A stretch of DNA of 64,000 nucleotides from Chloroflexota bacterium (GTDB lineage Bacteria; Chloroflexota; Dehalococcoidia; JACPEP01): positions 62,001 to 126,000 of the forward strand of contig JACPEP010000006.1 of the NCBI GenBank assembly GCA_016183425.1. The letters are read 5' to 3'. The notes under the pieces were generated by a model that was not told the origin of the DNA, did no database searches, and worked only from the letters and a program-made list of their open reading frames with translations. Each line of letters starts with the position of its first letter. Positions within the stretch are counted from its first letter, which is position 1. Below, in pieces: positions 2,102 through 48,750 of the stretch. The position numbers and the translations under genes were made by a program.

Positions 2102-3556
2102 ATGGCCACCGGTCTATTATCAAGCGCTCGTACCTATTTTCATCAAGCCAAGATACACGCCATGGAGCGGGGTCTCTCTGAAGCCCTGGGGCTCCTTACC
2201 CGGTCTTCGGAGGAGAACTATTCTCGTATCGCCCGGGTCTTCACTGCCTTCGCCTCCAACGAGACCCAGAAGAAGGTGGCGGAATACATGGAGACCTATC
2301 TGGCGCCGGGCCAGCCAGGGGCCGTTTTTCTTCACCATCTGGCGGACATCCACCCCAACTTCCGCCGCAAGTTCATCTCTCGCTTCATCACCAGTATCGT
2401 CTTCCACGACAATAATCACAGCCAACGCCTCAAGGACGGCCGAGAGATCCCTATCCCCGCCGCTATGGTTATCAGCCCTACCATGCGCTGCAACCTGCGC
2501 TGCGTGGGCTGCTACGCGGGTAACTATACCCAACGGGATGACCTAAGCCAGGAGGAGATGGAGAAGATTCTGGGAGAGGCCAGGGAGCTGGGCATCCGTT
2601 ATTTTATTGTCGTCGGCGGGGAACCTACCGTTTACAAACCCTTGTGGGATATGTTCGAAAAATTTAACGACTGTGCCTTCCAGTTCTACACCAACGGCCA
2701 CCTCCTGACCGATGACAAGATAGCCCGCCTGGTGGAACTGGGCAACGCCGTTCCCGCCCTCAGCATCGAGGGGTTCAAGGAGAACACCGACGCCCGCCGC
2801 GGCGATGGTGCTTTTGAAAGGATATTGAAGACCATGGATCGCCTCCGGGAGGCCAGGGTCTTCTTTGCCTTCTCCGCCACCGCCACTCGGTTCAACGTGG
2901 ACGATATCGTCAGCGACGAATTCATTGACCTTATGGTGGAGAAGGGGGCCCGTTACGGCTGGTACTTCGCTTACTGCCCTGTGGGGCGCAACCCCGATAT
3001 GAACTACATGCCTACCCCGGAGCAGCGGAATAAGCTGCGCTTGGGGATCAACCGCATTCGCAAGACCAAGCCTGTCCTGGTGGCTGACTTCTGGAACGAT
3101 GGCCCCCTCTCGGAGGGCTGCCTGGCTTCCGGCCGGCGTTACCTTCACATCAACAACAAAGGGGACGTAGAGCCCTGCGTATTCGTGCACTTCGCCGTAG
3201 ACAACCTCAAGAAGACCCCTCTTAAAGAAGCCCTGGCTTCGGACTTCTTTGCCGCTTTCCGCGGGTCCCAGCCCTACGGCAAGAACCTCCTTCGTCCTTG
3301 TCCCATCATCGACCGGCCAGAGCTTCTGCGCAACGCTGTGGCCCATTACGGTGCCTACGCCACCCATGAAGGCGCCGAGGTCACCATTACCGATCTGGCG
3401 GAGCCCTTAAATCAGTATGCCAGCGGCCTTCGTGAGGTCTATAAAAAGGTGTGGCAGGAAGAGTATGGTTGGGCGGGCTTGCTTTACGGCGATACCTATA
3501 AGTTAGATGACGCCGCCGATGATGGCAATTTCGCCGGTTGCCCTCTCTGTCGCTAG
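2102..3556 (+). CDS. Radical SAM protein with SPASM-like C-terminus
   Basis: 484 aa. A helical N-terminal region of about 115 residues precedes a radical SAM core with CxxxCxxC at C130, C134 and C137 (MRCNLRCVGCYAG). The VVGGEPTVY glycine-rich motif and a TNGHLL strand follow. The C-terminal part has GCLASGRRYLHINNKG, DVEPC and a final CPLC, the pattern of an auxiliary Fe-S (SPASM/twitch-like) region. Proteins of this layout modify peptides, act as maturases or carry out cofactor or lipid chemistry; the substrate is unknown. ATG 2102 has AGGAG eight bases upstream. lipA follows after 62 bases, but that does not prove a role in lipoylation. Confidence 0.85.
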   Translation: MATGLLSSARTYFHQAKIHAMERGLSEALGLLTRSSEENYSRIARVFTAFASNETQKKVAEYMETYLAPGQPGAVFLHHLADIHPNFRRKFISRFITSIVFHDNNHSQRLKDGREIPIPAAMVISPTMRCNLRCVGCYAGNYTQRDDLSQEEMEKILGEARELGIRYFIVVGGEPTVYKPLWDMFEKFNDCAFQFYTNGHLLTDDKIARLVELGNAVPALSIEGFKENTDARRGDGAFERILKTMDRLREARVFFAFSATATRFNVDDIVSDEFIDLMVEKGARYGWYFAYCPVGRNPDMNYMPTPEQRNKLRLGINRIRKTKPVLVADFWNDGPLSEGCLASGRRYLHINNKGDVEPCVFVHFAVDNLKKTPLKEALASDFFAAFRGSQPYGKNLLRPCPIIDRPELLRNAVAHYGAYATHEGAEVTITDLAEPLNQYASGLREVYKKVWQEEYGWAGLLYGDTYKLDDAADDGNFAGCPLCR

Positions 3557-3618
3557 GTGGGGTGGGGGATTCCTCTCCTCGGGCAGTATAGCGGCATATT
3601 GGGATAGAGGCAGGAAGC

Positions 3619-4503
3619 GTGGACTCCCGACCTAGGCTACCTCCCTGGCTAAAGGTTCCCCTGCCGGGAGGGCCCCGCTACCGGGGCGTGCATAGCTTGA
3701 TTGAAAGGCACCGCCTTCACACAGTGTGCCAGGAGGCCAGGTGTCCCAACATGGGCCAGTGCTTTGAGGAAGGAACAGCTACCTTTCTTATCCTGGGGGA
3801 TGTGTGCACCCGTCGCTGTCGCTTTTGTGCTATTACCAGTGGTCGGCCCTTCCCTTCTGACCCTGAGGAGCCGAGGCAGGTGGCCGAGGCAGTGCGTACT
3901 CTGGGTCTGCGCTACGCCGTCGTCACTTCGGTGACCAGGGACGATCTGCCCGACGGTGGCGCTGCCCACTTCGCCGCCACGGTGACGGAGATAATGAAAC
4001 TCAGTCCCCACTGTCTGGTAGAGGTTCTGATTCCCGACTTTGAGGGCTCCGAGGTGGCCCTGCGCCAGGTGGTGGCCGCTGGCCCGCGGGTTTTGAACCA
4101 CAATGTGGAAACGGTGCCCTCCCTTTACCCCCTAGTCCGGCCGGGGGGGGATTATGGCCGCTCTTTGGAGCTCTTGCATCGGGCCAAAAAGCGGGGCGCC
4201 ACCACCAAGTCGGGTATGATGCTGGGCCTGGGGGAAGGGGTGGCGGAGGTGCATCGGGTGATGGACGACCTGCGGCAGGTGGGCTGTGACCTGCTCACCC
4301 TGGGCCAGTATCTGCGCCCCTCCCGGGAGCACCTGCCCGTAGCCCGGTTTTACTCGCCAGAGGAGTTTGATGCCCTGGCGGAGGAGGCAAGGGCTCTTGG
4401 CTTCTCCGGGGTAGAGGCGGGGCCGTTGGTGCGTAGCTCATATCACGCCCATCGCCAGGCGTCGCAAATAGTTGCTGAGACCCATCGCTCTCCCCAGTCT
4501 TAA
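3619..4503 (+). CDS. lipA: Lipoyl synthase
   Basis: Radical SAM enzyme that inserts two sulfurs into octanoyl groups on lipoyl-dependent proteins. All ligands are present: the sacrificial auxiliary cluster at C37, C42 and C48 (VCQEARCPNMGQC), the SAM cluster CTRRCRFC at C63, C67 and C70, and the C-terminal RSSYHA signature whose Ser binds the auxiliary cluster. At 294 aa it has the normal length. The start is GTG 3619 with AGGAAG upstream. No lipB or lipM lies next to it. Confidence 0.96.
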   Translation: MDSRPRLPPWLKVPLPGGPRYRGVHSLIERHRLHTVCQEARCPNMGQCFEEGTATFLILGDVCTRRCRFCAITSGRPFPSDPEEPRQVAEAVRTLGLRYAVVTSVTRDDLPDGGAAHFAATVTEIMKLSPHCLVEVLIPDFEGSEVALRQVVAAGPRVLNHNVETVPSLYPLVRPGGDYGRSLELLHRAKKRGATTKSGMMLGLGEGVAEVHRVMDDLRQVGCDLLTLGQYLRPSREHLPVARFYSPEEFDALAEEARALGFSGVEAGPLVRSSYHAHRQASQIVAETHRSPQS

Positions 4504-4684
4504 GACTGCCTTGAAGGTCTGCTCGCTCCACTTAACCACCTTCGTCGCTCCCACGAGTTAAAACTGCCCCACCCGCAACGGGGTTTTCCTCTTTTCCGAG
4601 GTTTGGCGGTGCCCCCTCCCCGCCGCTACGGGGACAAATTTCCTTGCCGGCAAGGAGGCAAAGACACTCCCTTCGGGTAAACCC
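4504..4684. other. Intergenic region after lipA, no gene
   Basis: Short GC-rich inverted motifs are present, including CTTGCCGGCAAG near 4642-4654. I see no convincing T-tailed terminator and no coding bias. Confidence 0.4.
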
Positions 4685-4712
4685 TTGACAAAGGCAACAG
4701 GGGGTGCATAAT
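4685..4712 (+). promoter_or_regulatory. Promoter of the catabolic island
   Basis: Consensus -35 TTGACA (4685-4690), 16-base spacer and CATAAT (4707-4712) directly after a TG. This places a start about 40 bases before ATG 4762, which has AAGGAG at a good distance. It probably drives the TPP enzyme and the downstream hydroxylase. Confidence 0.6.
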
Positions 4713-4761
4713 TCATCACATCGGTTTCGTCGACCCTTTATGACGGGGAAGGAGTAAACAA

Positions 4762-6402
4762 ATGGCTACCATGACGGGGGCTTCCGTTCTGGTACGTTCG
4801 TTGCGGGCTCATGGGGTGGAGGCGGCTTTTGGGATTCCCTCTAACCATACCATAGAGGTGTGGGATGCTTTGTATCACGAGCCGGCTATCCGCTTCATCG
4901 GGGGGCGGCATGAGGAGGGGCTGGCCCACATGGCGGAGGGGTACGCCCGGGCCTCGGGGAAGGCCGGGGTGGCTATCACCAGCGCTGGTCCGGGGGCAGC
5001 CAAGACCATGTCCCCCATGGGAGAGGCCTATGCCCACTCCTCCCCGGTGCTCCACATCGCCAGCCAGGTGCCCTCCGAGCTGGTGGGTAAGGAAAAAGGC
5101 GTCCTTCACGACACCAAAGACCAATTGGGTATGTTTCGTAGTGTAACCGCCTGGTGCACCCTTATTGAAAGGGTGGAGGAGATCCATCCTACGGTCAGCG
5201 AGGCCTTTCGCCGTTTCCAGACCAAGCGGCCCCGCCCGGTGCACCTGGAGATTCCGGCTGACATAATCAGTAAAGCGACCTCCGTGGACATCGAGCCTCC
5301 GGTGGAAAGCCCACGTCCCAAGGGCGACCCCGAGAGGGTGGAGGCGGCGGTAACGGCTCTTAAGGCGGCGCGCCGCCCCGTGCTCTGGGGAGGGGGAGGG
5401 GTCATCTGCGCTGAAGCCAGCGAAAAGTTTGTGCGCTTGGCGGAGCGCTTGGGGGCTCCCGTTCTTACCACGGTGTCGGGCAAGGGGAGCATTCCAGCCG
5501 ACCATCCTCTGTATCTGGGGCCTTTCACCACCAGCGCCCCGGTTAGGGATTTCCTCAAGACCTGCGATGTCATGGTGGCCGTGGGCACTCGCTTCACCGG
5601 AGGCCGCACCGCCAACTGGACGCTGCCTCTGCCCCGCCAGGTCATCCACGTGGATATTGACCCCAGGGAGATGGGCAAAAACTTTCCGGCCACCATCAGC
5701 ATCGTGGGCGATGCGGGAGAGGTGCTGGATCAGATGCTGGAGCTTATGGGGGAAGAGGACTTTCAAAAAGGTCCTGAGCTTTTAAAGGACGCGGACAATG
5801 TCAAGGCGCAAGCGGTGGATGCCTTTAAGGATGGGAAGATACCGGGAGCCTACGGGGGTGCCAATCAGCTACGAACCATGCTCGCCATACGGGAGGTGCT
5901 GCCCAGGGATGGGCTGATGATTTGCGACCCCTGCGTCCCCACCTATTCCGCCCAGCAGGGATTCCCCACCTACCAGCCCCGCACCTTTTTCTATCCCCAC
6001 GGCTGGGTCACTCTGGGTTGGGGGTTTCCCTTCTCCGTGGGGGCCAAGGTCGCCCGCCCCCACCGCCCCGTCGCTCTCATGATTGGCGATGGAGGTTTTA
6101 TGTACAATGCTCAGGAGCTGGCCACCGCCATGCTCTACGGCATTAACGTGGCCGTCATTCTCTTCAACGACAATGCCTGGGGAACCATCAAGGAAATTCA
6201 GCGAACCAGGTTTGCCGGGCGCTATTTCGGCGTCGATCTCCACAATCCCGATTTCATGAAGTTCGCCGAGGCTTTCGGAGCTCCAGGAGTGCGGGTGAGT
6301 ACCTTGAAAGAGCTCCTCCCCGCTTTGGAGAAAGCTCTGCAAGCGCCGCTGCCCACCATCATCGAGGTAGAAATAAACAACGGCTTCGCAAACTTCACCT
6401 AG
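4762..6402 (+). CDS. Thiamine-pyrophosphate-dependent enzyme, acetolactate synthase/benzoylformate decarboxylase family
   Basis: 546 aa with the three-domain layout of the POX/ALS superfamily. The N-terminal pyrimidine-binding domain carries the catalytic Glu in GGRHEEGLAHMAEG (about E51). A central domain (about 190-330) resembles the Rossmann-like middle domain. The C-terminal diphosphate domain has GDGGFMYN followed some 26 residues later by NDNAWG, the Mg-TPP motif. It likely decarboxylates or carboligates a 2-oxo acid; the substrate is not deducible. It begins a + strand run with molybdenum hydroxylase genes 35 bases downstream. A second family member lies at 57206-58834, also near a molybdenum hydroxylase. 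Confidence 0.88.
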   Translation: MATMTGASVLVRSLRAHGVEAAFGIPSNHTIEVWDALYHEPAIRFIGGRHEEGLAHMAEGYARASGKAGVAITSAGPGAAKTMSPMGEAYAHSSPVLHIASQVPSELVGKEKGVLHDTKDQLGMFRSVTAWCTLIERVEEIHPTVSEAFRRFQTKRPRPVHLEIPADIISKATSVDIEPPVESPRPKGDPERVEAAVTALKAARRPVLWGGGGVICAEASEKFVRLAERLGAPVLTTVSGKGSIPADHPLYLGPFTTSAPVRDFLKTCDVMVAVGTRFTGGRTANWTLPLPRQVIHVDIDPREMGKNFPATISIVGDAGEVLDQMLELMGEEDFQKGPELLKDADNVKAQAVDAFKDGKIPGAYGGANQLRTMLAIREVLPRDGLMICDPCVPTYSAQQGFPTYQPRTFFYPHGWVTLGWGFPFSVGAKVARPHRPVALMIGDGGFMYNAQELATAMLYGINVAVILFNDNAWGTIKEIQRTRFAGRYFGVDLHNPDFMKFAEAFGAPGVRVSTLKELLPALEKALQAPLPTIIEVEINNGFANFT

Positions 6403-40165: not shown

Positions 40166-41407
40166 ATGACAATCCCCACGAAGGAAGCGAGGCCCTCTCC
40201 GTACCGATGGGTAGTTATCAGTATGCTGTGGGGGCTGAACGTTATCGAGCCGATAACCCTTCAGTCCCTGGGCGTCATGCTGCCCGCCATCACCCAGGAT
40301 CTCTCAGTAACCCCCAGCCAGGCGGGGTTGTTGGGGGCGGCCGCCTGGTTGGGCCGGGCCCTTTTCTCCATTCCCTTTAGCGCCTGGCTTTCCCGCTACG
40401 GTCCGCGCCGCCTGGTGGGGGGCGCTATCCTGACCGCCGTTGTTCTCGTTTTCCTCCAGGGCCTTTCCCCGGCCTATGGTTTTCTGTTGGCCAGCCGCGT
40501 GGCGCTGGTGGTGGTGCTGGTGGCCGAAGTGCCCGCCCGGCCCCTTCTTATTCAGCAGTGGTTTCCCCGCCGTGAGATCTCCCTGGTCAACGGCATATAC
40601 TCTGCCCTTAACGGTACCGGGGTGGCCACGGCGGTGGTGTTAACCCCCTTCCTTCTTCTGGCTCTGGGAGGATGGCGCAACACATTGTATGCCTATGCTG
40701 TCCTCTTTGCCCTGGGTGCCCTTTTGTGGATCCTTTTGGCTCGAGAGGGCCGTAGCGAAGAGTATCAGTCGAGATACTTGGCCCAAAAAAGAACGCCCCT
40801 GATGGCGGTGATGAAGTATCGGGAGCTGTGGCTCCTGGCGTTGGGACAGTTGGGGGGCTATATAGCCTGGTCCGCCCGTCTCACCTTCTACCCCACCTTC
40901 ATGCTGGCTGCCTATCAAATGCCCATTACCACCTCCGGGTTCATTCTGGCCATGCACCAGTTGGGCTACATCGTCGGGTGCTTCATTTCCGGCATCGTAG
41001 CCGAGAAGGTGGGCTACCGTCGCCCCCTTATCTATATACCGGGTATCCTCATGCCCCTTTTCTCCTTTGGACTTCTGGTCACCAGTTGGGTGCCTCTGTT
41101 GGCCTTTTTCGCCGTGGCCAGCGGTCTTATCTGGCTTTTTAACCCCATCATCCATACCATTCCCTACGAGCTGCCGGGGATAAAGCCTCGGGAGGTGGCG
41201 GTGGCCTCCGCCTTTGTCGCCACCGCTATGATGGGCGGGGGCAGCCTGGGTCCCTTACTGGCGGGGGTGCTCTATCAGGGGCTGGGCTCCCTCTACACCG
41301 CCCTGGCCATAACCTGCATCTTTCCGGGCCTCTACTTCGTCACTGGCATGTTGATCCCTGAAACAGGCCGTCGCGCCCGGGAAGCTACCCGAGTCACCAG
41401 TTTATGA
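40166..41407 (+). CDS. MFS transporter (tandem 1)
   Basis: 413 aa, 12 predicted helices, CynX/NimT-like branch of the major facilitator superfamily. Conserved RWVVISMLWGLNVIEPI at the start, PSQAGLLGAAAWLGRAL and a LIQQWFPRREI loop are shared by all three tandem paralogues, as is the late IHTIPYELPGIKPREVAVA block. Substrate unknown. First of a tight run with seven-base spacing to the next gene. Confidence 0.9.
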   Translation: MTIPTKEARPSPYRWVVISMLWGLNVIEPITLQSLGVMLPAITQDLSVTPSQAGLLGAAAWLGRALFSIPFSAWLSRYGPRRLVGGAILTAVVLVFLQGLSPAYGFLLASRVALVVVLVAEVPARPLLIQQWFPRREISLVNGIYSALNGTGVATAVVLTPFLLLALGGWRNTLYAYAVLFALGALLWILLAREGRSEEYQSRYLAQKRTPLMAVMKYRELWLLALGQLGGYIAWSARLTFYPTFMLAAYQMPITTSGFILAMHQLGYIVGCFISGIVAEKVGYRRPLIYIPGILMPLFSFGLLVTSWVPLLAFFAVASGLIWLFNPIIHTIPYELPGIKPREVAVASAFVATAMMGGGSLGPLLAGVLYQGLGSLYTALAITCIFPGLYFVTGMLIPETGRRAREATRVTSL

Positions 41408-41414
41408 ATATGGG

Positions 41415-42650
41415 TTGAGAGTGATGGGATCCGGAGAGGGAATGAGATACCGCTGGGTTATAGGGGCCCTCTTTTTTGGTGCCATTTACGGTACCATGCT
41501 CTTTTCCTACTCTTTGGGCATGATGTTGCCGGAGATGACCAAAGAGTTGGGTCTGACTCCCCTTCAAGTGGGTTGGCTGGGCTCGGCGGCCTGGCTCATT
41601 AGTGCCGCTTTGTCAATACCTCTGGGTGTCTGGCTTTCTGGCTACAGCCCAAAAAGGCTGATGGCCTTGGCTCTTTTCATCGGTGGCCTGAGCCTATTAC
41701 TCCAGGGATGGGCGCGAAACTTCGTCACTCTTCTGGTTGGCCGCCTGGCTATGTCCGCCGTTCTGGTTGCCCGCTCGCCCAGCCAGACCCTCCTCATACA
41801 GCAGTGGTTTCCCCGTCAGGAAATACCCTTCGTTAACGGGCTCAACAGCGCCTTCAGCGGCACGGGCGTTATTACGGCCCTGGCCCTGACCCCTTTGCTC
41901 CTCATTCTTTTCTCCGGCTGGAGAAGCATCTTTTTCGCCACCGCCCTCATTTTCTTCCTTCTGGCTCTGGCGTGGCTCGTTTTCGGCCGAGAGCGAATCA
42001 CCCCGGAATATCGGGCCCGCCTCGCTTCCCAGGAGCGCAGCCCGATCGCTGCCCCCTTGAGGTACAAAGAGCTGTGGATTCTGGGACTGGGGGAGGTGGG
42101 GTGCTTCGCTACCTGGACAGGACGTATAGTCTTCTGGCCCATCTATGCCCTAGAAAGCTACGCCATGCCGTTGCCTCTCATCGGCATTATTATGGCCATC
42201 CACGAGGTTGGCTATATCCTCAGCGCCCTGGTCTCCGGGTACCTATCCAGCCGGCTGAGGCAGCGCCGTATTTTCGTTTGGGCGCCGGGGATAGCGATGC
42301 CCTTCCTCGCCTTCAGCCTCCTTATCACCGATTCCGTGCCCCTTTTGATCCTGCTATCCTTCCTTAATGGGTTCACCTGGACCTTTCAACCCATTGTGTA
42401 TACGGTGCCCTTCGATCTGCCGGGAGTAAAGCCGCGAGAGGTGGCGGTGGCCACCGCCTTCCTTTCCACCTTTATGACAGTGGGCTCGGCTTTGGGGCCC
42501 CTCATGATAGGTGCTATCTACCAGGGGACGGGGTCTCTCTTTATGGCTCTCGCCATAAGCTGCATCCCTCCTTTGGGGATGGCCCTGGCCGCGCCATCGG
42601 TGCCGGAGGCGCGTCCCCGTCCCGTGGCGGAGGGGGGGCTGGTTCCATGA
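41415..42650 (+). CDS. MFS transporter (tandem 2)
   Basis: 411 aa, 12 helices, paralogue of its neighbours: LIQQWFPRQEIPFVNGL, YKELWILGLGEVGCFATW and VYTVPFDLPGVKPREVAVA. The ORF opens at an upstream start codon 41415 whereas ATG 41424 and ATG 41442 are alternatives; I keep the longest. It overlaps the third copy by four bases. Confidence 0.88.
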   Translation: MRVMGSGEGMRYRWVIGALFFGAIYGTMLFSYSLGMMLPEMTKELGLTPLQVGWLGSAAWLISAALSIPLGVWLSGYSPKRLMALALFIGGLSLLLQGWARNFVTLLVGRLAMSAVLVARSPSQTLLIQQWFPRQEIPFVNGLNSAFSGTGVITALALTPLLLILFSGWRSIFFATALIFFLLALAWLVFGRERITPEYRARLASQERSPIAAPLRYKELWILGLGEVGCFATWTGRIVFWPIYALESYAMPLPLIGIIMAIHEVGYILSALVSGYLSSRLRQRRIFVWAPGIAMPFLAFSLLITDSVPLLILLSFLNGFTWTFQPIVYTVPFDLPGVKPREVAVATAFLSTFMTVGSALGPLMIGAIYQGTGSLFMALAISCIPPLGMALAAPSVPEARPRPVAEGGLVP

Positions 42651-43900
42651 GCCGGAAAGCCGCCATCCAAATTCGAGAAGCCCCGTCAAAGGCGTCTCCC
42701 TACCGTTGGGTGGTTCTGGCGGCCTTCTGTGCCGTGGACCTAGCCACCATGCTATCCTCCCAGTCCATGGGGGTGATGCTCCCCGCTATGAAGGTAGACC
42801 TATCCCTTTCCCCCTTCCAGATGGGGTTGCTCGGTGCCTCCTCTTGGATGGGTACCTTCCTCTTTGCCATTCTCTTTGGCGCAGGGCTGTCTCGCTACAG
42901 TCCCAAGAAGGTTACCTTCTTCACCGCCATCAGCGGCAGTATCTTGGCCTTTTTTCAAGGAATGGCCCAAAGCTTCCTGGGACTTTTCATCCCCCGCTTC
43001 GGGGCCGTCGTCGCCTCGGTGGGTCGTATGTCCGCCCGCACCATCATAATCCAGCAATGGTTTCCGCTGCATCAGGTGGTATTGGCCACCGGCATTAACT
43101 CAGCCACCAGTGGCATTGCCTTAGCTATAGCCACCGGGTTGACACCATTCCTCCTCATTGCCTTGGGAGGGTGGCGGAGTACTTTTTATCTCTACAGTCT
43201 GCTTCTGCTCGTGATGAGCGGTGTGTGGCTGGTGGTGGGCCGCCAGAGGGTCACTCCCAGCTTTCAGCAAGGCCTTACCTCCCAGCAAGATAGTCCTTTG
43301 AGAATTATCTGGCGACACAAGATGCTTTGGCTGCTGGGCTTAGGCTCTATGGGATGCAACCTGGGCTGGGGAGCGCGCATGGTTTTCTGGCCTACCTACA
43401 TGCTGGAGGCCTATAGAATGCCGGTCACCATCTCCGGACTCATGTGGAGCGTCCACGAGGTAGGCTACATACTGGGCAGTGTGGGCGCGGGCTGGATAGC
43501 CAATCGGGTAAAGGTGCGCAACCCCCTCATCTGGCTGCCGGGGTTTTTCATCCTTCTCTTCGCCCTGGGGATGCTCTCCACCGGCAACGTGCTTTTATTG
43601 GCCCTTTTTACCTTTAGCGGTGGCTTCTCGTGGTTTTTCAACCCTATTATCCATAGCATGCCCTATGAGTTGCCGGGCGCCAAGCCCCAGGAGGTGGCGG
43701 TGGCGGTGGCGTTCTTGAGAACGATGACTACCTTTGGCTCCACCATCGGCCCCATCCTGGCCGGGCTCCTGTATCAGACCACCGGCTCTCTCTACTGGGC
43801 GCTGGTGATTACCAGCTTGTCTCCGATACTGACGGTAATAGCTGGCCTCATTATGCCCGAGCGGGAGCCCCGGCAGAGGGAGGGAATGGGCCACCTTTAA
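42647..43900 (+). CDS. MFS transporter (tandem 3)
   Basis: 417 aa, 12 helices, third paralogue: SKASPYRWVVLAAFCAVDL, IIQQWFPLHQVVLATGINS and IHSMPYELPGAKPQEVAVAV. It begins in an ATGA overlap with copy 2 and ends where the next gene starts (TAATG), indicating one transcript and tight coupling. Confidence 0.9.
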   Translation: MSRKAAIQIREAPSKASPYRWVVLAAFCAVDLATMLSSQSMGVMLPAMKVDLSLSPFQMGLLGASSWMGTFLFAILFGAGLSRYSPKKVTFFTAISGSILAFFQGMAQSFLGLFIPRFGAVVASVGRMSARTIIIQQWFPLHQVVLATGINSATSGIALAIATGLTPFLLIALGGWRSTFYLYSLLLLVMSGVWLVVGRQRVTPSFQQGLTSQQDSPLRIIWRHKMLWLLGLGSMGCNLGWGARMVFWPTYMLEAYRMPVTISGLMWSVHEVGYILGSVGAGWIANRVKVRNPLIWLPGFFILLFALGMLSTGNVLLLALFTFSGGFSWFFNPIIHSMPYELPGAKPQEVAVAVAFLRTMTTFGSTIGPILAGLLYQTTGSLYWALVITSLSPILTVIAGLIMPEREPRQREGMGHL

Positions 43901-44795: not shown

Positions 44796-44871
44796 GCGGG
44801 AGTAACTCAGTTGGTAGAGTCCCTGCCTTCCAAGCAGGTTGTCGCGGGTTCGAATCCCGTCTCCCGCTCCA
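44796..44871 (+). tRNA. tRNA-Gly (anticodon TCC)
   Basis: A 76-base cloverleaf: acceptor GCGGGAG/CTCCCGC, D-arm with AACTCAGTTGGTAGAGT, anticodon arm CCTGC-CTTCCAA-GCAGG with TCC as anticodon, and T-arm GCGGGTTCGAATCCCGT. The discriminator base T is followed by an encoded CCA. It reads GGA/GGG glycine codons. Confidence 0.97.
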
Positions 44872-44919: not shown

Positions 44920-44993
44920 CCTCTGTGGGAGAGGATTAAGGTGAGGGGGCTTCAATTTCACCCTCACCCGGACCTCTCCCATCAAGGGAGAGG
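44920..44993. repeat. Long imperfect inverted repeat
   Basis: Arms of about 30 bases (44920-44947 and 44961-44993) built from CCTCTC..GGGAGAGG and GGTGAGGG/CCCTCACC blocks around a short loop. This is a common type of intergenic palindrome; related GACCCCCTCTCC text recurs at 50002-50030. The remainder of 44994-45170 holds only a fragment resembling the CCTGAGC repeat near 45048-45085. Confidence 0.65.
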
Positions 44994-45178
44994 TGATTCT
45001 TCTTATCGATTAGGCATTTATGCAAGGCGGGGAAACCCTTCTTCCCCGCTCATCCTGAGCGTGTCGAAGGAGGAGCGGATTGTTCAAGAAATTTCGAAGA
45101 CAGGAGACTAGTACAGTCCCTCCCAGTGGGCCGGCTCTCTTATTTTTGGGGCCCAGCAATTTTTCCCCCACAAAAGTA

Positions 45179-45207
45179 TTGACAAGGTAACAAAATCGTG
45201 ATAAACA
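45179..45207 (+). promoter_or_regulatory. Promoter of the ComQXP-like locus
   Basis: Perfect -35 TTGACA (45179-45184), 17-base spacer and TAAACA (45202-45207) with a TGA before it; the -10 is weak. Predicted start is about 50 bases before the precursor ATG, in an AT-rich leader. Confidence 0.5.
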
Positions 45208-45264
45208 TGTGTACTAGATTAAGCTTGCAAGACGCGGGTAAATCAAAAAAAGGAGGAGGGTCAC

Positions 45265-45480
45265 ATGAGTCTACAGGCAATAAAACATCTGGTGGCCGGG
45301 CTGCACTCTGACAAGGACTTGAAAGACCGCTTTGGGTCAAAACCTGATGAGGTGATGGCTCAGTTCAAGCTGAGTGCAAAGGAAAGAACCGCCATCAAGC
45401 AGGCGCACTTTCGAGTCCAAGCCGACGGCACGCTAGTTCTGAAAGCAGAAGCCGGCACTCTCGATTGGTGGTGGTCATAG
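45265..45480 (+). CDS. Small peptide precursor, ComX-like, C-terminus with three Trp
   Basis: 71 aa. The N-terminal 45 residues look like a helical leader (LVAGLHSDKDLKDRFGSKP, then FKLSAKERTAIKQAH), comparable in layout to ComX pheromone precursors and to Franean1_4349-type RiPP leaders. The end is TLDWWWS, with W68-W70 one residue from the C-terminus. ComX is cut and prenylated on a Trp near its C-terminus by ComQ, and a ComQ-like gene follows directly. A strong AAAAGGAGGAGG ribosome site precedes ATG 45265. The pheromone role is inferred; no cleavage site can be assigned. Confidence 0.75.
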   Translation: MSLQAIKHLVAGLHSDKDLKDRFGSKPDEVMAQFKLSAKERTAIKQAHFRVQADGTLVLKAEAGTLDWWWS

Positions 45481-45484
45481 GCGC

Positions 45485-46477
45485 CTGGAAGTAGTAGGCT
45501 TTGCCAAAGTTGCCACGGAACCGAAAGCCCACCTCAGGGAAGTAAGCGGCGTCGTTTTTCGGGAGATCCAGGTCACGCTGGGCCTGGTAAAAGAGAACAA
45601 AGGCTTACGGAATATTCTTCTGGAGGCGATTCAGGCCCAGGCAGGGGAATCTCTATCGCTGCGTCGCTCCTTTTTAACTCTTATCATCTATCAGTTACTG
45701 GGGGGGCATCTGGAACGAGGCGTACCGGCGGGGGCGGCCATCGAATTCTTTGCTGCCGCCCTGGATGTGTTTGATGACCTTGAGGACCGGGACGCCAAAA
45801 CGGCCCTATGGCGGAAACACGGACAGGCTCAGGCCCTAAATGCGGCCACGGCTTTGCTTATGCTGGCTTACGGGGCAGTAGCGCGCTTGAGGCTGAAGGG
45901 AGTTGACGACTTCACCATCGCCCGAGCTACTGAAACAATAGCCTCCCTGGGCGCTACCGCCTGTGCCGGTCAGCACTACGACCTCGCATGGGAATCAAAG
46001 CCCTTTGTCAGCGAAAGCCAATACTTCAAAATGATCGAGATGAAGTCGGGGTCGTTGATGGAGTGCGCCTGCCGGATGGGTGCCGTCGTGGCAGGAGCCG
46101 ATGAAAAGACGGTGGATTCTTATGGTCTTTTTGGCCGCAACCTGGGTATGGCCGCCCAGATCATGAACGACACGGAGTCAACCCAAGACCGACAGTCGGC
46201 GAAGAGTGACCTTATCAAGAGGAAAAAGACGTTACCGGTTATCTTTGCCTTCAGCCACGCCGAGCCTGAAGATCGCAAGTGGTTGACGGATCTTTATGGT
46301 CAAGATATCCCCATGGAGCCACGCGAAGAACAACGGGTATCCCAAATATTGCAGCGCTGCGGAGCCATCCACTATTCGGTAATTCGGGCCGAGCTCTACA
46401 AGCAAAAGGCAATTCAGTCGCTGAAAGCAGTTTCAGACTCTATCAGGCAGACTCTGCAGGCAGTGCTAAGTATTTGA
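45485..46477 (+). CDS. ComQ-like isoprenyl transferase with no normal start codon
   Basis: Trans-prenyltransferase fold. The first Asp-rich motif is DDLED followed by RD. The second is NDTES (QIMNDTES) and is followed by KSDLIKRKKTLPVIFAF, a form typical of ComQ-type enzymes and not of chain-elongating synthases with two DDxxD motifs. The first ATG/GTG/TTG, GTG 45767, lies immediately before the first motif and would remove the N-terminal helices, yet upstream sequence in frame (RRSFLTLIIYQLLGGHLERGVPAGAAIEFFAAALDV) clearly belongs to the enzyme. The frame is open back to 45443. I place a CTG start at 45485 tentatively (330 aa). Confidence 0.78.
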   Translation: MEVVGFAKVATEPKAHLREVSGVVFREIQVTLGLVKENKGLRNILLEAIQAQAGESLSLRRSFLTLIIYQLLGGHLERGVPAGAAIEFFAAALDVFDDLEDRDAKTALWRKHGQAQALNAATALLMLAYGAVARLRLKGVDDFTIARATETIASLGATACAGQHYDLAWESKPFVSESQYFKMIEMKSGSLMECACRMGAVVAGADEKTVDSYGLFGRNLGMAAQIMNDTESTQDRQSAKSDLIKRKKTLPVIFAFSHAEPEDRKWLTDLYGQDIPMEPREEQRVSQILQRCGAIHYSVIRAELYKQKAIQSLKAVSDSIRQTLQAVLSI

Positions 46478-46503: not shown

Positions 46504-48750
46504 ATGGATGCATACCCTGTTTCTCCCCCTCTTTCTCTGTCCCAGACGGTATGGGAAAAGGTAGCCAGTTGGCTGCTACTAGCTGTCGGGGGTACTGTTG
46601 GCGTCGGCCTCGTTGCTATATTCGTCCTGACCCTCACGACTTCCTACGTTGGCGTTGACCTTGTCTTGCGAAATGGTAAGTGGTATGTCGGTCAGCTAAG
46701 CGAATCCGGTACCGCCGGTCGCGACGGCATAAGGTCGGGAGACGAGGTCATAGCCGTAAACGGGCTAAGCCCAAAGGAAGTCAGCGGTGGCTTGGGCTAT
46801 ATCGGCGCATCACGCGTTCGATCCCTGAAAGTCGTGAATGGCGTCGGTGAGGCCAAGGAGACTGCGACAACCACCGGTCCGGTCCCTGCAGGAGCGCGGC
46901 AAGAGTCTATTGCCATGTTCGTTGTCGGTGCCGCCTTCTGGACGGTGGGGTTCGTTTCTCTGCTCAGGAAGCCGCAATCACGTATAGCCCTATGGCTTTT
47001 CCTAATGAGTCTCAGTGTTGCCGTTGCCCCACTGGTATCCTTGTTACCACTGCGTGGCTGGCTTGAGATACGGCCCCTGGAAGCCGTGAACGGGTTTCTA
47101 GCCCCCTGGCTCATGGTGCGTTTTTTCCTCGAGTTTCCGGCGGAGAAGCGAATCAAACTACTGGGTAAGGACATCACGGACCTCGTTTATCTTCCCCCTG
47201 TGCTCCTCCTAGTGGTGTATGCATGGGTTGGGTACCAAGATTCGGCGTTCTACACCTGGTTTCGGCCGGTGCTCCTTTGGAATCTGGCAACGGGTTTCCT
47301 CTTGGTGATTGGCTTCATCACCCACAGCTACTTGACTGCCTCCTTCGGCAGGTATAAGCAGCAGATAAAGATCGTCGCGGTCGCTGCTGCCATTAGCCTC
47401 TTGCCTTTTGTTATCCTCGCTGTGTTGCCGAATGCCTTGGGCTTGAGTGGTCTCGTCCCGCCTTATATAAGCGTTATTGGTCTCGTTCTTTTGCCTCTTT
47501 CTCTGGGATATGTGATCCTGGTGAAGAACCTTCTGGACATCGATGTGGTGGTTAGCCAGGTAGTATCTCACAGTGCGCTGCTGTTGCCTCCGGTCAGTGC
47601 CAAAATCCAGCAACTGGTTCAGCGTCGGATGAGCAAGGGTAGATACGATTATCGGGAAGCCGCCTCCAGTCTCGTCATGGAGCTCTCGTCACAGACGGAG
47701 CTTGAGCAAGTCTTGCGAGGGTTTGCTTCAAGCGTCAGACGTTTCTTAGGACTTGATGGGGCCTGCGCCTTCGTCGTTGACAGAGAGAAGCCTTCGGTAA
47801 TCGCCGCCGCCTCTGGGATATACGAGGACGACGTGGCTCTAAAACGTCTGGTCATCGGTTGGGCTCGCGCCGTAAGAGATGACCCCGAGCATCAGTTCCC
47901 GAATAAGGCTCCCCCTCAGGCGGGTGTGGCCTTCTTCGTGCCTCTTTTCAGGGGTGAAACCGACGTGGGAATGCTCATATTGAGCCACAAGCTGCCGCCA
48001 TTGGGTTACTCGGTGGACGATGTGTATTTTCTGCTCACTATTCAAAACCCAGCGTCGTTGCTCATTCACAATGCCTTGCTGCTGCACCAGGCGAGGAGGA
48101 ACGCTATAGAGCTTGAGGCAGTTCAGAAAAGCGTCCAAGAATATGCGACTTCTCTGGAAAGAAGCAAGAAGGAGGTGGAACAAGCCTTCTTTAACACTGT
48201 CCGGACGCTTGTCCTGGCGTTGGAAAGCCGAAATCCCTACACGAAGCAGCACTCCGAGCGGGTTGCCCGGCTCGCCCAAAGGATCGGGATGGCCCTGGGA
48301 CTGGCTCCCGAGGATTCGCGCAACCTGGAGATTGCGGGGCTCGTCCACGACATAGGCAAGATAGGGATTCCAGATAACGTCTTGCTCAAGCGAGGGCCCC
48401 TGGAACATCAGGAGAGAGCAGAGGTGGAACTCCATGCGATTAGGGGCGTAGAGATGCTGCGGTTCTTGGGCTTCTTGGCCGAGGTTATTCCCCTAGTCGA
48501 GCACCACCACGAACGGTATGACGGTACCGGGTACCCCCACGGCTTGAAAGGCGCTGCCATACCCCTGGGAGCGCGCATTCTGGCGGTCGCCGATGCCTAT
48601 GACGCGATGACCTCAGAACGCCCTGGGCAGCCCGCCCTCTCGTCAAAAGAGGCGATGGAGAGGCTCAAAGAGGGTGCGGGAACTCAGTGGGATCCGCAGG
48701 TAGTGACGGCATTTCAACGTCTCAACAAGCTGGATAGTGAAGCGACATGA
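46504..48750 (+). CDS. ComP-like membrane receptor with GAF and HD-GYP output
   Basis: 748 aa. One helix (about 22-48), an extracytoplasmic PDZ-like domain (about 50-120, GQLSESGTAGRDGIRSGDEVIAVNG), then seven more helices to about 340, ending KNLLDIDVVV. This membrane half resembles the receptor part of ComP. Next come a linker, a GAF domain (about 400-525), a coiled coil, and an HD-GYP domain with H583, H615-D616, HHHER (667-671) and GYP (676-678). HD-GYP enzymes degrade cyclic-di-GMP. No kinase core is present. It starts 26 bases after the ComQ-like gene. Confidence 0.85.
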   Translation: MDAYPVSPPLSLSQTVWEKVASWLLLAVGGTVGVGLVAIFVLTLTTSYVGVDLVLRNGKWYVGQLSESGTAGRDGIRSGDEVIAVNGLSPKEVSGGLGYIGASRVRSLKVVNGVGEAKETATTTGPVPAGARQESIAMFVVGAAFWTVGFVSLLRKPQSRIALWLFLMSLSVAVAPLVSLLPLRGWLEIRPLEAVNGFLAPWLMVRFFLEFPAEKRIKLLGKDITDLVYLPPVLLLVVYAWVGYQDSAFYTWFRPVLLWNLATGFLLVIGFITHSYLTASFGRYKQQIKIVAVAAAISLLPFVILAVLPNALGLSGLVPPYISVIGLVLLPLSLGYVILVKNLLDIDVVVSQVVSHSALLLPPVSAKIQQLVQRRMSKGRYDYREAASSLVMELSSQTELEQVLRGFASSVRRFLGLDGACAFVVDREKPSVIAAASGIYEDDVALKRLVIGWARAVRDDPEHQFPNKAPPQAGVAFFVPLFRGETDVGMLILSHKLPPLGYSVDDVYFLLTIQNPASLLIHNALLLHQARRNAIELEAVQKSVQEYATSLERSKKEVEQAFFNTVRTLVLALESRNPYTKQHSERVARLAQRIGMALGLAPEDSRNLEIAGLVHDIGKIGIPDNVLLKRGPLEHQERAEVELHAIRGVEMLRFLGFLAEVIPLVEHHHERYDGTGYPHGLKGAAIPLGARILAVADAYDAMTSERPGQPALSSKEAMERLKEGAGTQWDPQVVTAFQRLNKLDSEAT

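Follow-up and report, generated by a model that had tools for sequence, protein, structure and literature searches.

The 71-residue reading frame examined here is the first gene, X, of a three-gene operon, X-Q-S, which we read, with a probability of roughly 0.7, as an autocrine or quorum-type system: a ComX/PalX-type prenyl-tryptophan pheromone would be sensed by its own receptor, with a c-di-GMP output replacing the phosphorelay. The reading is built on the computed gene order, the homology that links Q with ComQ and the sensor part of S with that of ComP, an NHLP-type leader, a conserved near-terminal tryptophan and the catalytic motifs. In the window, i.e., the whole stretch of 64,000 nucleotides analyzed from a Chloroflexota bacterium of the class Dehalococcoidia, the three genes lie on the same strand, with Q directly downstream of X (Table 1). 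Since a tRNA-Gly gene is located upstream of X (44796-44871) and the next long open reading frame after S, a frame of 371 aa, is found on the opposite strand, X-Q-S forms a compact unit.

Table 1. Positions of the genes, motifs and signals of the X-Q-S operon in the window.
Feature	Position	Strand	Remarks
Shine-Dalgarno sequence of X, AAGGAGGAGG	45250..45259	+	strong, 5' of the ATG
Precursor peptide X, 71 aa	45265..45480	+	NHLP-type leader, residues ~1-49; variable core, ~50-71
TGG TGG TGG, W68-W70	45466..45474	+	4th, 3rd and 2nd residues from the C-terminus
Predicted ComQ-type Trp prenyltransferase Q	45485..46477	+	start uncertain; frame open from 45443
First Asp-rich motif DDLED (FARM, prenyl-diphosphate site)	45773..45787	+	RRG segment, present in canonical synthases, is missing
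Pseudo second Asp-rich motif QIMNDTES	46157..46180	+	like ComQ, retains the upstream Gln and, of the Asp pair, the second one alone
ComP-like receptor S, 748 aa	46504..48750	+	TM1, PDZ-like loop, ~7 further TM, GAF, HD-GYP
HD-GYP (HD_5) output domain	48214..48702	+	HDIGK at 615, HHERYDGTGYP at 668

Translation of X gives MSLQAIKHLVAGLHSDKDLKDRFGSKPDEVMAQFKLSAKERTAIKQAHFRVQADGTLVLKAEAGTLDWWWS, ending in LDWWWS (codons GAT TGG TGG TGG TCA TAG), which confirms the frame as described in the first-pass annotation, with W68-W70 followed by a single serine, Ser71. A hidden Markov model trained on eight homologues and excluding the window sequence was searched against the 463 window open reading frames of at least 40 aa, and X was its sole match (E = 1.2e-12); the leader part alone was found with E = 1.9e-12. 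The homologues of X hold the same position beside the same two genes and are likewise preceded by AGGAGG-like sites. The match and the conserved neighbourhood exclude a chance reading frame, so that X is a real gene. The earlier description of X as a precursor with a C-terminal Trp core is supported, and a ComQ-type gene, which that description lacked, lies directly downstream. Three tryptophans followed by a single serine had been called rare; the WWW string by itself occurs in 5 of the 463 mechanically derived frames. The evidence for X rests on the family and the operon and not on the three tryptophans. As all three codons are TGG, the triplet could stem from slippage in the repeat.

No consensus sigma-70 promoter was found in this region of the window under the search rule used. 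Several homologous loci carry TTGACN-17-TATAAT-like sites; in the window there is a TTGACA at 45179, but the -10 element that goes with it is poor. An inverted, terminator-like repeat, ACCTCTCCC...GGGAGAGGT, lies between the tRNA-Gly gene and X (44972-44994). Further upstream, three tandem transporter-like genes of ~411-417 aa (MFS type by eye), which resemble paralogues, occupy 40166-43900 on the plus strand.

The leader had been said to resemble both ComX and Franean1_4349-type RiPP leaders, and the second half of this comparison stands. The Os1348 NHLP profile (NF038399) matches 17 of the 19 members of the X family (best E = 5.6e-12), and the Franean1_4349 profile PF14407 matches 3 of the 9 members scanned (best E = 6.4e-9). 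Window X on its own scores 0.057 against the NHLP profile, under the cut-off, and is tied to the family through the leave-one-out model; its leader is thus predicted to be of the NHLP clan (Os1348/Franean1_4349), the window member being assigned through its homologues. The ComX half did not hold up. Homology to the ComX leader was not established: hhalign gave E = 0.0095 and 0.049 when ComX sequences were taken singly and 0.02 when two were paired. The ComX profile PF05952 had no match at E ≤ 1 in any of the 9 members to which it was applied, and none in the window's own genome.

In the alignment of the 19 members, the leader is recognizable, the core varies in length and sequence, and one near-terminal tryptophan is the invariant column. 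Besides WWWS in the window, the termini read GGW, NWL, GWL, GWF, EWT, FWL, YWL, FWM, LWV, WWAPEP, WSAPEP, WLVIAP, QWF, WWQ, WWA, FWWYYNW, FWWFYNW, NWW, FWN and, in G478, FWFG. The expectation that homologues would share the leader and the WWW around a variable middle is therefore borne out for the leader and the middle and not for the triplet: homologues bear one to three tryptophans, and all that they share is at least one Trp near the end. WWW as a conserved motif was rejected, being private to the window among the compared sequences, a set drawn from outside its genus and family. The opposite pattern, a kept middle with lost tryptophans, which had been named as contrary to a secreted core peptide, is not seen, as it is the middle that changes from lineage to lineage and a Trp near the end that is retained. 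Among the close relatives G199, G210, G082 and G188 the core is nearly constant (TADGVSLQS..GPM.GWF/L), and it differs between lineages, the pattern expected of lineage-specific pheromones.

The association of the tryptophan with Q was assessed using leaders found by a leader-only model, so that Trp played no part in their detection. A Trp within the last 8 residues was present in all 19 Q-adjacent leaders vs 8 of 17 non-adjacent ones (Fisher p = 2.6e-4), an association among the 36 distinct matches in the loci examined and not a census, with related sequences that are non-independent. Two of the eight non-adjacent Trp-bearing leaders (G031, G039) belong to modules split by contig ends. Other Chloroflexota NHLP peptides (L135, L138, L143, L151, L155) have Trp-rich C-termini as well (RPAWLFWP, RPGWFYWPS, WVPWRRGR, WIPWQWAPNRRK), and no ComQ-like gene was found within the ~1.5 kb examined around them.

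Q belongs to the polyprenyl-synthetase family (PF00348, E = 6e-33) and aligns with the ComQ proteins of Anoxybacillus (hhalign E = 1.6e-27) and B. velezensis (E = 7.6e-18). In trees of 19 and 28 rows, the Q proteins and Firmicute ComQ split from 12 canonical synthases with supports of 100/100 and 100/99, respectively; inside the Q clade the branch order is weak, also as regards the window Q, and there are some long rows. Most Q proteins keep the DDxxD of the first Asp-rich motif, and none has the 'LIHDDxxD...RRG' segment of canonical synthases. At the second motif nearly all have ND instead of DD; as ND also occurs in 3 of the 12 canonical rows, this residue alone is not diagnostic of the ComQ type. 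The pseudo-SARM of ComQ has retained a single Asp of the pair, the second, which is critical for Trp prenylation, and an upstream Gln has been implicated in Trp recognition (PMC5331326, PMC13290415). Motifs and clade together predict that Q is a ComQ-type (trans-IDS-like) Trp prenyltransferase.

The start of Q is uncertain. There is no ATG, GTG or TTG codon between the end of X and 45767, where a GTG sits just before the first Asp-rich motif. Because this GTG would remove ~100 residues with conserved counterparts, a non-standard start is likely, probably CTG 45485 or ATT 45464, or else the sequence contains an error. Automatic annotation would probably truncate Q just before the first Asp-rich motif.

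The tryptophans lie where one characterized ComQ accepts them. The ComQ of strain RO-E-2 was shown in vitro to require the acceptor Trp as the second, third or fourth residue from the end (PMC5331326), and W70, W69 and W68 of the 71 residues occupy exactly these positions, in keeping with the ComX-type position rule. Since all three are acceptable, any one of them may be the modified residue.

S is predicted to have an extracytoplasmic PDZ-like loop (residues ~47-90), a GAF domain (398-521) and an HD-GYP domain (571-733), and its transmembrane architecture is supported by hydropathy. S and its homologues share TM1, a PDZ-similar loop of ~80 aa and a multi-TM domain; the PDZ match of the window S itself is weak (0.025), and S is without the last two TM helices that homologues have before the cytoplasmic part. 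The PDZ loop and TM domain align with Anoxybacillus ComP (hhalign E = 4.4e-13 over 311 columns), which also has a PDZ match. Models of ComP show the same TM1, an 85-residue PDZ loop, which is a proposed ComX site, and further TM helices (PMC9620489). In the cytoplasmic part, GAF and HD-GYP stand in place of the HisKA_3 and HATPase output of ComP, and both signatures of HD-GYP c-di-GMP phosphodiesterases, HDxGK and HHExxDGxGYP, are present. Given the missing ComX profile match, the module may be classed as one that would work like ComQXP and not as ComX itself. No response regulator corresponding to ComA adjoins S. The window genome encodes one GGDEF protein and four HD_5 proteins, and a search of it for PilZ, as a c-di-GMP effector, gave no match.

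Searches of genomes of the class and the phylum and of named contigs revealed homologous modules in more than 20 Chloroflexota loci. Within Dehalococcoidia the same neighbourhood is present in G007, G038, G082, G188, G199, G210, G218, G228 and G262, and in G031 and G039 it is broken up or truncated where contigs end. It is also seen on the named contigs L048, L049 and L053, with Q and S only on L050 and L054, and other Chloroflexota families contribute G330, G368, G597, G422, G499, G478, G550 and G487. The precursors of G443, G471 and G057 are less certain, and the module of G322 is partial. The gene order is Q-X-S in G422, G499 and G478, like that of Bacillus comQXP, and X-Q-S elsewhere. In L206 (G188), at ~3133-4863 of the reverse complement, Q is apparently shortened by a frame break, and precursor and receptor remain. 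The Q and receptor of L050, a contig of 3.1 kb under the label Syntrophaceae bacterium UBA7544, nest in the Dehalococcoidia clade, a placement due to either transfer or mis-binning.

Loci with a complete neighbourhood always have the receptor as their third gene. A Q homologue adjoins the receptor sensor domain in 19 of the best 30 loci; the remaining loci examined among them are without Q, and the sensor domain is therefore not exclusive to the module. A search for plasmids with this domain found nothing. The output part of the receptor varies: HD-GYP in the window, G031 and G038 (with an altered motif in G038), HD_5 plus GGDEF in G597, and GGDEF plus EAL in G422 and G499 (G597, G422 and G499 corresponding to loci L193, L203 and L205). 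HisKA plus HATPase is found in G218, G007, G368, G330, G550 and G478, and in L048 and L049 by their sequence; a histidine kinase plus receiver in G199, G082 and L053 and, judged by the similarity of its C-terminus, in G210. In G443, G471 and G057 there is a HATPase but no HisKA match. A c-di-GMP-turnover domain is thus carried by the receptors of six modules, and it recurs beyond HD-GYP, since those of G597, G422 and G499 end in HD_5 plus GGDEF or GGDEF plus EAL.

The pathway that we infer, from prenylation through export and pheromone binding to a c-di-GMP output, would begin with the NHLP leader of X presenting the tail to Q. Q would then move a prenyl group (C10-C20) from a prenyl diphosphate onto one of the C-terminal tryptophans (W68, W69 or W70), a step that we regard as very probable, and the product would probably be a cyclised prenyl-Trp of the ComX/PalX type. 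After removal of the leader, the short lipopeptide would exit the cell and be bound, outside or within the membrane, by the PDZ/multi-TM domain of S; that the product of X is the signal for S appears likely. Binding would make the attached HD-GYP domain more or less active and thereby shift the c-di-GMP level, unlike the ComP/ComA phosphorelay, and we consider it reasonably likely that c-di-GMP hydrolysis is the output of S.

The mature prenylated peptide might instead be an antimicrobial or another secreted RiPP, with S only as its regulator or immunity sensor. Most NHLP leaders are part of RiPP natural products, which would suit such a role. Prenylating membrane-active peptides has, moreover, raised their antimicrobial activity (PMC13290415). 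However, the operon is without genes for transport, immunity or additional tailoring, the receptor accompanies X and Q wherever the neighbourhood is complete, S has the sensor domain of ComP, and the cores are short and lineage-variable like ComX pheromones, which makes this role improbable. It is also unlikely that prenylated X stays in the producer's membrane and reports the prenyl-diphosphate supply or membrane state to S, with no communication between cells. The operon without an exporter and the location of the sensor in the membrane and PDZ loop would fit such a circuit, and sparse subsurface populations may hamper cell-cell signalling, but ComX, whose system is the nearest to have been characterised, leaves the cell and signals to others (PMC4008528), and the lineage-specific cores resemble pherotypes. 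Both Pfam and NCBIfam call Q a polyprenyl synthetase, as they would an ordinary short-chain isoprenyl diphosphate synthase next to an unrelated short gene X. There is very little chance of this, as the second Asp motif is degenerate, the RRG segment is lost and Q falls in the clade of ComQ, while X-Q-S (or Q-X-S) recurs phylum-wide and every leader found beside Q has a Trp in its last 8 residues.

The pheromone reading has points against it as well. PalQ accepts a Trp only as the last residue (PMC10853753), while X ends in Ser. Q is without a standard start, S without two TM helices and the genome without a PilZ match, and the X-Q-S operon contains no exporter or protease gene. For ComX, too, we know of no exporter or protease.

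The first-pass annotation had seen in the leader a hint of a link between the ComX and Franean1_4349 families; a system joining an NHLP leader to Trp prenylation is already published. PalX/PalQ/PalP of Paenibacillus alvei comprises an NHLP precursor ending in Trp, a Trp prenyltransferase and a sensor kinase; the leader aids prenylation, and PalQ needs the terminal Trp and tolerates no extension (PMC10853753). Set beside PalQ and PalP by the description in that paper, X-Q-S is alike in its three genes, its NHLP-type precursor with a near-terminal Trp and its predicted trans-IDS-like Trp prenyltransferase. The Pal system differs in belonging to a Firmicute, in having Trp as the last residue and in its histidine-kinase receptor, whereas X ends in Ser and S in HD-GYP. 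With ComQXPA of the Bacillus subtilis group, the module shares a homologous Q, a homologous PDZ/TM receptor domain, a Trp near the precursor C-terminus and the pseudo-SARM; the window differs in its NHLP leader, the order X-Q-S, the lack of an adjoining ComA and the HD-GYP receptor output. With the Os1348/Franean1_4349 NHLP-clan RiPP precursors (NF038399, PF14407) it shares the leader family and differs in its Trp-ended core and adjoining ComQ-type enzyme.

All ComQXPA systems in a census of genomes up to 2013 were from Firmicutes (PMC4008528). Our literature search, whose coverage left most subscription journals and preprints aside so that a prior report may exist, found no description of the module in Chloroflexota and no ComP-type receptor with an HD-GYP or GGDEF output. 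The combination of NHLP leader, Trp prenyltransferase and kinase is already known, and what appears new is the phylum and the swapped receptor outputs. We give even odds to the wider claim that a ComP-like receptor for a prenylated peptide controls c-di-GMP in a single step (by HD-GYP here, and by HD_5 plus GGDEF or GGDEF plus EAL elsewhere in Chloroflexota), with no phosphorelay, in a phylum for which we found no described peptide quorum sensing.

If it works, the module would provide a testable peptide communication system for Chloroflexota, including Dehalococcoidia, a class with organohalide-respiring and deep-subsurface members. It would also reveal a second phylum in which pheromones are made with NHLP leaders, and an exchange of ComP-type receptor domains among kinase, hybrid kinase and c-di-GMP outputs. 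The modules supply new candidate Trp prenyltransferases, more than 20 in number, which may be useful for peptide lipidation; the Trp that they would modify is last, penultimate or internal and single or multiple.
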